A stretch of 64,000 nt of DNA from assembly GCA_033239005.1 (NCBI GenBank), contig BSQZ01000021.1, positions 9,071,516 through 9,135,515 of the forward strand, read 5' to 3'. Shown here one piece after another: positions 15,901 through 18,900 of the stretch. The stretch's first letter is position 1. Each line of letters starts with the position of its first letter. Below the pieces are notes generated by a model that was not told the DNA's origin, made no database searches, and worked only from the letters and a program-made list of their open reading frames with translations. A program made the position numbers and the translations under genes. The stretch comes from Lamellibrachia satsuma. Lineage: Eukaryota > Annelida > Polychaeta > Sabellida > Siboglinidae.

Positions 15901-18900
15901 AATCTATATACTATACGACATATCTGTTCTAACATCATAACTGCCCAAATATGTTTTAATTATCACATTTAAAAAAATAAAATTTTACTGTTATCTATTA
16001 TTGAATATTGACCTTGCCTTTCAGTATATTTGTGAACAGCTGATGTAAATTTTTGTTAACAAAGTTTATTTTGATTATGTGATGGGTCATTGGTCATGCA
16101 ATAGTAATTCAATAATTCTCCACGTGTTATGTAAATGTGATATTTGGCGAAAAACATTCAAATTAAACAGATAACAGTATACTATGCAACATGATTTTAT
16201 GATAGCAAGTATTATAACTTTATATATTTAAGACTTAATCCTTTGAGTTCTTTGTTAACGGAACATGCAGCATTGTTTGTGTGTAGGTCGTCTGTATGAC
16301 TCGCATGACTTGACATGATGGAGCTAGGCATTGTTTGTGTGTAGGTCGTCTGTATGACTCGCATGTCCTTGGCATGATGGAGCTAGGCATTGTTTGTGTG
16401 TAGGTCGTCTGTATGACTCGCATGTCCTTGACATGATGGAGCTGGGCATTGTTTGTGTGTAGGTCGTCTGTATGACTCTCATGTGCTTGACATGATGGAG
16501 CTAGGCATTGTTTGTGTGTAGGTCGTCTGTATGACTCGCATGTCCTTGACATGATGGAGCTGGGCATTGTTTGTGTGTAGGTCGTCTGTATGACTCGCAT
16601 GTCCTTGACATGATGGAGCTGGGCATTGTTTGTGTGTAGGTCGTCTGTATGACTCTCTTGTCCTTGACATGATGGAGCTGGGCATTGTTTGTGTGTAGGT
16701 CGTCTGTATGACTCGCATGTCCTTGACATGATGGAGCTAGGCATTGTTTGTGTGTAGGTCGTCTGTGTGACTCGCATGTCCTTGACATGATGGAGCTGGG
16801 CATTGTTTGTGTGAAGGTCGTCTGTATGACTCGCATGTCCTTGACATGATGGAGCTGGGCATTGTTTGTGTGTAGGTCGTCTGTATGACTCGCATGTCCT
16901 TGACATGATGGAGCTGGGCATTGTTTGTGTGTAGGTCGTCTGTATGACTCGCATGACTTGACATGATGGAGCTAGGCATTGTTTGTGTGTAGGTCGTCTG
17001 TATGACTCGCATGTCCTTGGCATGATGGAGCTAGGCATTGTTTGTGTGTAGGTCGTCTGTATGACTCGCATGTCCTTGACATGATGGAGCTGGGCATTGT
17101 TTGTGTGTAGGTCGTCTGTATGACTCTCATGTCCTTGACATGATGGAGCTAGGCATTGTTTGTGTGTAGGTCGTCTGTATGACTCGCATGACTTGACATG
17201 ATGGAGCTAGGCATTGTTTGTGTGTAGGTCGTCTGTATGACTCGCATGTCCTTGGCATGATGGAGCTAGGCATTGTTTGTGTGTAGGTCGTCTGTATGAC
17301 TCGCATGTCCTTGACATGATGGAGCTGGGCATTGTTTGTGTATAGGTCGTCTGTATGACTCGCATGTCCTTGACATGATGGAGCTGGGCATTGTTTGTGT
17401 GTAGGTCGTCTGTATGACTCGCATGTCCTTGACATGATGGAGCTAGGCATTGTTTGTGTGTAGGTCGTCTGTGTGACTCGCATGTCCTTGACATGATGGG
17501 GCTATGCATTGTTTGTGTGTAGGTCGTCTATACGACTCGCATGTCCTTGACATGATGGAGCTGGGCATTGAGAAGTCAGTGAGCATCAAAGACTTCCTGG
17601 TGAGGCCAGTTCAACACAGCTGACTTAGACCAGATTCATTCAACTTAACACAGCAATATCCAAACATTAAAGATCCTCTCTTATTTTTTACTCATCTCGT
17701 TTCAGAATAATTCCATGGCGAGGTGCATCATTGCACAAACTAATAAATTATTATTGACTATGTCAGCAAAAAATTACAGAAGTTCCGCCTATATATACTA
17801 TAACATCCCCTCTATATACTGTAGCATCCCCTCTATATACTATAACACAGGGTTGAAAAAATTAGCATTTTTATGCAGATGTTTCTAATAATAAAAACAT
17901 TCCAGGCACAGACCTTTTTTGCATTTCCATTGATTTAATATTATAATGTGTACGTTATAATAACACTGTGTATGTCTGTACAGGGCAACAAGTGCTCTAT
18001 GGGAACCAAGCCGTGCTTGTTGTTCGCTGGTGAGGCGTTTGATGAAGACAAGGAACATAGAAGATTGAAGAGTCTATTTATTGGTAAGATGCAGCAACAT
18101 TCAGGATAAATACTAATCAGGGTATTATGTGCAATAGTTTTAGGAAGACAGCACATACCGTATTCGACCTAACAAGCATACAGTACGCTTGAAACAAATT
18201 GGGCCATTGAAAAATGTCAAGGAATCTGTTCTTATAAGCATACACCAAAATGTGTTTCTGTAGACAATAAGGTAACTCTATTTAACATTTTATGATTTGG
18301 TGACTAGTGTAGAACAACTGAAAAGTGGTGCCAACTGTTTAACACCAGATGGTGACACTTCAGTTGTTCCACACTAGTCAAATTTACAAAGAAATCTTAT
18401 GTAAATACAAATTAAGTTGTTGACTAAACTAATGTTGTTGACTAAACTAATGCAAGTGCATTCATAGCCAAGTATAAAAAATGTTCTTTAATTAATTTTC
18501 CTTCCAGTGAGTTTGGTACTGACACCTGGTGAATGAACACACTACAAACTAAAACTGCTAAAAACTAGTGTAGCTGAAAACTGGAGACAATATGAATGCC
18601 AACATTACATGAAAATTCATACAATCTGATTATTCACAGGCTTTCTTTGAGCACAATAAACAAGTGTTTCAAGTTAAAATACGGCATGATGAAAAAGTAG
18701 ATTTTTTTTCAAAAATAAAAATGACGGGTTGGCAGTATGTAAACTAACTAATAAAATATAAAAGGCCTTACATTTCTGCTTTGATTTGGTACAGGTGGAT
18801 ATGGGAACAGTGTAAATATTTTTGGTAGTTTAAATAAACTGTAGTCAACGTTTCCAGTGTCTGGATTAACTCTTTCAACAAAAGAAACACTTCCGGAGAC

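Follow-up and report, generated by a model that had tools for sequence, protein, structure and literature searches.

A 22-copy minisatellite spanning the splice acceptor of RPF2 exon 6 in a non-lancelet genome, probably without a function of its own

Minisatellites in which each unit repeats an intron-exon boundary are called "mirages", and the original report of them reportedly carries the phrase "somatic polymorphism in amphioxus" in its title. In one account they are described from lancelet globin genes, with Adh3 cited as another case; splicing of these genes seems regular, with RT-PCR support, while instability of the arrays is noted and an intron-gain model is proposed (PMC3087553). A second account adds PGBD5 as a mirage and cites troponin C (PMC3902484), and the lancelet mirage genes named in these sources are thus Adh3, the globins BflGb6 and BflGb9, PGBD5 and troponin C.

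Here, we describe an array of this kind in RPF2 of another animal group, in which the unit spans the boundary, the genuine copy lies at the edge of the cluster and the other copies, the decoys, keep an AG. As in BflGb6, the unit joins the 3' end of an intron to the 5' part of an exon (exon 2 in the lancelet gene), and in the lancelet mirages too, many copies keep AG/GT and edge copies escape homogenization. The scale is different: where lancelet copy numbers are given, they are 6 and 3 copies of 150-160-bp units in two BflGb6 haplotypes and, in PGBD5, depending on the assembly, 2 or 7 copies of a 60-bp unit and 3 or 6 of a 108-bp unit, whereas RPF2 has 22 copies of 59 bp. Normal splicing of the lancelet genes has RT-PCR behind it in those sources, whereas the RPF2 array is known from genomic sequence alone.

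Two further systems offer partial parallels. The human IFI6 (6-16) minisatellite is reportedly on the donor side, with short units and several donors in use. The resemblance to RPF2 is that a minisatellite furnishes several splice sites, in that gene donors (Turri, Cuin and Porter 1995); the RPF2 array differs in being on the acceptor side, with the last copy as the presumed site of splicing. Intron gain in a potato RdRp gene also involved a tandem genomic duplication with splice signals, but there the duplication created a new intron, whereas at RPF2 an existing one was lengthened (PMC4974935). Boundary-repeating minisatellites under the name "mirage" were found for lancelets only, all published cases that we found being cephalochordate, and no tubeworm minisatellite literature turned up, in a search that most subscription papers lay outside and that is weak evidence of absence. 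What is known, then, is mirages in lancelets; what is new is a 22-copy case in another animal group, with others in the same genome.

An RPF2 splice acceptor in 22 copies

The array lies in a 64-kb stretch of DNA, hereafter the window, within a gene that is clearly RPF2 and is otherwise intact (Table 1). Joined exons 2-10 encode 305 amino acids without an internal stop, with a Brix domain (PF04427; E 1.9e-50, 172 bits) at residues 32-219 of 305. The best solved chain is that of a ribosome production factor 2 homolog (8fl0_ND, which we take to be human; E 4e-124), and RPF2 chains score up to 416 bits vs 22-28 bits for other Brix chains. Exon 1 is a candidate of 20 nt encoding MVLQRVV, one of six ATG-to-donor candidates, which agrees with the start of the homologue P0003 (MVLQRIVKAKNQ); given this match the name "exon 6" used by the earlier note is apt. 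Among the best 120 of 1411 protein matches, identity is 70% at the best score and 72% at the highest, none of these rows (many of which are nameless) is labelled Branchiostoma, and no close relative was found in the best 120 of 664 matches in a search scored on residues 98-305. In a tree of 31 rows the window protein groups with three sequences (support 91/84, not starred), a placement that points to no named group. The donors of the gene are gtaagt, gtgagt, gtatgt, gtaaga, gtgagg and gtaatg. Two other introns of RPF2 contain arrays with no splice site inside: one of 71 bp x 14 in intron 1 (12580-13573) and one of 54 bp x 10 in intron 4 (15025-15563), which begins 24 bp past the exon-4 donor.

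Table 1. Positions of the RPF2 gene, its boundary array and a second candidate boundary array in the window
Feature	Position	Strand	Description
RPF2 gene	9927..21123	+	10 exons, exon 1 predicted; Brix domain, RPF2 chain match
RPF2 exons 1-5	9927-9946 (predicted), 13891-14023, 14408-14445, 14961-15000, 15778-15859	+	
RPF2 exons 6-10	17523-17599, 17984-18083, 19038-19140, 19609-19753, 20922-21123	+	
RPF2 exon 5	15778..15859	+	Donor gtaagt at 15860
21 decoy copies and intron end of genuine copy	16270..17522	+	All within intron 5; TRF, copy table
GCATTG, left edge of array, in intron end	16270..16275	+	Repeated directly at 17565-17570 (6 bp); candidate site of array birth
Genuine RPF2 exon 6, 77 nt	17523..17599	+	Open spliced frame, protein match; donor gtgagg at 17600
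GCATTG, right edge of array, within exon 6	17565..17570	+	Partner of 16270..16275
Second candidate boundary array, 34 bp x 6 copies	31595..31802	-	Every unit ends in gtcactgtcagcag

TRF finds a head-to-tail array on the forward strand (16270-17570; period 59, 22.1 copies, 95% matches) whose unit is the end of intron 5 and the start of exon 6. Split at the acceptor, it has 22 exon starts (16287, 16345, 16404 ... 17464, 17523), with 19 units of 59 bp and three of 58 bp (copies 1, 12 and 16). Twelve of the 22 units are distinct, in the order ABCDCCEFGHCABCIABCJFKL. Copy 22 of 22 (unit L) is the genuine boundary: it makes up the first 42-48 nt of exon 6 and runs straight into the rest of that exon. 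Intron 5 is 1663 nt long and would be 427 nt with one copy. The earlier note had read this region as a 22-fold boundary with 21 decoys ahead of the genuine exon as last copy, which TRF, the copy-by-copy table and the open reading frame bear out. It had given the unit as 12 intron and 47 exon nucleotides, which holds for the unit; the first copy, however, matches 17 nt of the intron end, and the boundary-spanning segment comprises 11-17 nt of intron end and at most 48 nt of exon 6.

Every decoy retains its AG (20 as TAG and one, copy 10, as AAG), and the decoy acceptor 23-mers are 1-3 nt away from the genuine one. When exon 5 is joined to a decoy in computed translation, a premature stop follows in 21/21 cases. 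In 17 it is the TAG of the next unit's acceptor; copies 1, 12 and 16 stop earlier, at a TGA, and copy 9 reads past the AAG to a TGA at 16847. Counted from the junction, every predicted frame ends at codon 31 or before, truncating the protein within the Brix domain. By the usual rule, a stop that lies more than 50-55 nt before a junction makes a transcript a substrate for decay; the decoy stops lie 79 to 1283 nt upstream of the exon-6 donor, and decoy-spliced transcripts are therefore predicted decay substrates. Exactly the first 15 residues of exon 6 are encoded by 12 of the 21 decoys, copies 2, 7, 9, 13, 17 and 21 having amino-acid changes and copies 1, 12 and 16 being frame-shifted. Several statements of the earlier note need amending accordingly: its 20 decoys with AG become 21, its 20 with the exact 15-residue start become 12, and its rule that the stop is the next acceptor applies to the 17 decoys above and fails for copies 1, 9, 12 and 16. 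Its broader predictions, that decoy use would make poison isoforms and that the last of 22 near-identical acceptors must be preferred, agree with the computed stops and with the small differences between acceptors.

Birth of the array and choice of the genuine site

The two edges of the array have exactly GCATTG in common, and its length amounts to complete units with 6 nt left over. Minisatellites are usually proposed to be born by duplication between short direct repeats, and here slipped-strand or microhomology-based duplication between the hexamer in the intron end and that in the exon may have founded the array. It would then have grown through unequal exchange, both of one unit at a time and of blocks of several. 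Block repeats show growth by exchange of several units at once: ABC(D/I) occurs at copies 1-4 and 12-15 and ABC at 16-18, and unit F is followed by a unit with A27G at copies 8-9 and 20-21. The right-edge copies escape homogenization. Copies 21 and 22 stand apart and differ from each other at 6 positions, and copy 22 has two changes absent from all 18 full-length decoys (mean pairwise difference 2.0). The left-edge copy does not stand out, copy 1 being identical to copies 12 and 16.

With 22 nearly identical acceptors, what decides among them presumably lies outside the acceptor. Copy 22 alone continues directly into the remainder of the exon, which is purine-rich (GAGAAG...AAAGAC), and of all copies it lies nearest a working donor (17600); it would thus be paired with that donor across the exon, that is, by exon definition. 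We propose that the last copy is preferred for these two features, contact with the exon body and nearness to this donor. Transcripts that slip onto a decoy would have a stop over 50 nt upstream of a junction and would be removed by nonsense-mediated decay. Use of the copy at 17523 is what the intact reading frame alone points to, and exon definition would be the simplest account of it. Masking of the decoys by RNA structure was considered and rejected: under two settings, positions around the acceptor are unpaired with a mean probability of 0.37-0.42 in copies 2-21, of 0.37 or 0.32 in the genuine copy and of 0.33 and 0.27 in copy 1, so that predicted local pairing at the genuine site is like that of the decoys or slightly tighter, and folding of the last 354 nt is little better than that of shuffled sequences (z -1.5, 6/100 shuffles as good).

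Arrays at other exons of the same genome

Tandem arrays are abundant in this assembly (735 Mb in 279 contigs). In twenty 10-kb stretches, one at the same offset on each of contigs C1-C20 (200 kb), we found 52 arrays with a period of 10-200 and at least 5 copies, which cover 14.9% of the sequence; the corresponding figures for the window are 15 arrays and 16.1%. The 34-bp array on the reverse strand may be a second boundary array of the window. Its last copy adjoins an open exon-like stretch (31594 downwards), which matched no Pfam family and, joined with a second stretch, gave chance-level NCBIfam and PDB rows only, and a gene there is therefore unproven.

The window holds further repeats. A 26-bp array of 13.2 copies with 100% matches (6073-6415) is perhaps very recent, and a 49-bp array reaches 74 copies (23661-27283). 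Minisatellites of 61 bp and 38 bp lie in or beside a piggyBac-like transposase frame (54202-59655; DDE_Tnp_1_7 at 54202-54891), with similar 61-bp arrays recurring at 57636 and 59239. A HARBI1-type transposon on the reverse strand (40980-43547) matches a protein of Lamellibrachia satsuma with 99% identity across 84% of the query, which suggests that it was recently active or that the two animals are closely related. Lamellibrachia satsuma is a siboglinid annelid, and the animal studied here is probably a siboglinid tubeworm as well, a placement that stays at probable since transposons can move between species. A lancelet origin of the window was rejected on this match and on the lack of rows labelled Branchiostoma in the RPF2 matches listed. 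Neither an Rfam nor a tRNA scan of the 64 kb gave a hit.

For boundary arrays elsewhere, 251 flank segments of 80 arrays, those of the window included, were translated, and all but about 35 of them were read by eye, a subjective reading; the cases it yielded are therefore examples and give no rate. At L014, 58-bp units precede an immunoglobulin exon, a candidate in which 4/5 decoys have AG. At L025, two candidate arrays precede transporter exons, presumably SLC22-like, with 75-bp units (two decoys) and 20-bp units (three decoys). Taken singly, fragments of both loci stayed below the cut-off of every Pfam family, and so did the two array-borne L025 exons when joined to each other. Joined exon translations gave matches: I-set for L014 (E 1.8e-8), and for L025 Sugar_tr (E 1.2e-13, its best stretch being 1-88) as well as MFS_1 (E 4e-9, 5-232 of 238). 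The array at L029 was read and left uncounted.

A less selective view comes from kinase exons. A survey with the Pkinase HMM scored 138 of 963 candidates and gave 139 matches; decoys are too short for this HMM alone, and 40 places were therefore fetched and examined. They had been chosen by eye before their arrays were known, short exon-like matches being favoured and some having stops near the matched edge, and comprise 40 stretches with 46 matched exons and 92 edges, which are HMM edges and not proven splice sites. Arrays cross an edge in at least 4 of the 46 exons and at 5 of the 92 edges (5.4%, interval 1.8-12.2%), or at 4 of 92 when a single duplicate at L034 is left aside. The four loci are presumably CDK-like (L030), Aurora-like (L041), CDK12-like (L066) and STK36-like (L034) kinases. 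L030 has 69-bp units with at least 6 decoys, all with AG; L041 64-bp units with at least 8, all with AG; and L066 68-bp units with at least 6, one without AG. L034 has 35-bp units on the donor side, with 8 decoys that all have GT, and on the acceptor side one diverged 105-bp duplicate, outside the array filter used.

Two of these loci have features of their own. In L041 (15-665), 8 decoys have an acceptor and CAG/gtgatg, and each could be a complete short decoy exon. In L034 (346-922), a single exon has repeats at both ends, and its first donor copy is the genuine one by reading frame.

An array lies within 45 nt of 13 of the 46 kinase exons. As read, four cross the edge, and the arrays near L038 and L058 do not include the exon; seven array-adjacent exons lay outside the reading (L033, L037, L042, L044, L046, L055 and L064, the last with short repeats that extend 7 nt beyond the matched edge), and the edge count may therefore be low. 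More than 60 nt from the matched exons, arrays cover 18.3% of positions in the same stretches, against 16.3% in the 200-kb sample. Edges are thus depleted in arrays relative to flanks (p 6e-4 with 5/92, 1e-4 with 4/92, values that serve as a guide only since positions are non-independent). This rarity at exon edges argues that such arrays probably carry some cost; edge-crossing arrays seem to be selected against, yet some persist. A figure of 2080-3744 splice-site arrays was extrapolated with assumptions on how many genes and introns there are and on a founding unit of 40 bp.

In all eight acceptor arrays read (RPF2, L014, L025 twice, L030, L041, L066 and L034), the reading frame marks the last copy as the genuine acceptor, and in the one donor array read, at L034, it marks the first copy as the genuine donor. 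This position rule follows from the geometry of duplication and is alone no proof of exon definition.

Explanations weighed and their meaning

We read the RPF2 array as a mirage, a neutral or mildly harmful minisatellite born at a 6-bp repeat and tolerated through exon definition, with a probability of roughly 0.8; it is probably without a function of its own. A single locus cannot show neutrality. The same structure at unrelated genes of the genome argues for a genome-wide mutational process.

The earlier note had suggested that the array could tune the level of RPF2 by copy number. As a dimmer, it would send a steady share of transcripts to decoys and to decay, and array length, under selection, would set the output of the gene. 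Ribosome-assembly genes are dosage-sensitive, which counts in favour of such a dimmer, as do the AG kept in 21/21 decoys, the premature stop behind each and a donor at least 79 nt downstream. Retention of AG is nevertheless expected without selection. Among the 18 full-length decoys 10 of 59 columns vary, intronic and exonic ones alike (2/17 vs 8/42, Fisher p 0.71), and the chance that no variable column falls in the AG is 0.69, so that selection is not needed to explain its presence in all decoys. No sequence constraint was seen in the column variation of these decoys, and selection maintaining their AGs was rejected as unneeded. The decoys drift in frame and amino acids, and the recurrence of the structure at immunoglobulin, transporter and several kinase exons argues against a device specific to RPF2. 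The suggestion of tuning is therefore not upheld, and we regard a selected dimmer as improbable.

Tandem arrays are error-prone in assembly, and a collapsed or expanded repeat of different real length is the next explanation to consider. The units, though, differ in a structured way, with 12 types among 22, and comparable arrays built of other units are found at many loci. When the assembly was searched, a 31-nt piece of the unit gave 17 exact forward matches and 0 reverse, all at the RPF2 array and at no other place, and 0 with a reversed-pattern control. Contigs of up to 34.6 Mb would also be typical of a long-read assembly. An artefact thus appears very improbable.

Recursive splicing would have each decoy junction re-create an AG/GT and be spliced again until the last copy is reached. 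The letters allow for this at RPF2, where 21/22 acceptors read TAG/GTC and one AAG/GTC, and where exon 5 joined to a decoy reads ATAG/GTCGTC. GTCGTC is, however, a poor donor compared with the gene's own, and the exon copies of the kinase arrays start with TACATA (L041), mostly AGTTAC (L030) or mostly GAGCGT (L066), none with GT; recursive splicing would therefore not explain them, and we give it very little credence at RPF2. That the decoys serve as alternative exons for variant RPF2 termini is very improbable: the 15-residue start of exon 6 recurs unchanged in 12/21, but all decoys stop by the 31st codon, truncated in the Brix domain.

A bolder proposition, which we hold to be unlikely, is that in conserved genes of this animal one splice site in about twenty is embedded in an array of itself, and that the length of such arrays serves many genes at once, RPF2 included, as a highly mutable and heritable dimmer. 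If true, the genome would hold thousands of natural experiments on the choice of one site among many copies, and at high copy number a measurable share of transcripts would go to decoys and decay.

On the preferred reading, that of a tolerated mirage, the interest of the RPF2 array lies in its high copy number together with signs, from a small sample, that the phenomenon is common in the same genome. Boundary arrays may mislead the automatic annotation of genes; among the best 120 matches listed none was close to this RPF2, an absence that may have another cause. Arrays of the RPF2 type allow a direct test of splice-site choice, as they offer near-identical sites that are distinguished by position relative to the exon body. 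The 22-copy case and those of the small sample suggest that genomes rich in minisatellites generally produce boundary arrays as a by-product.
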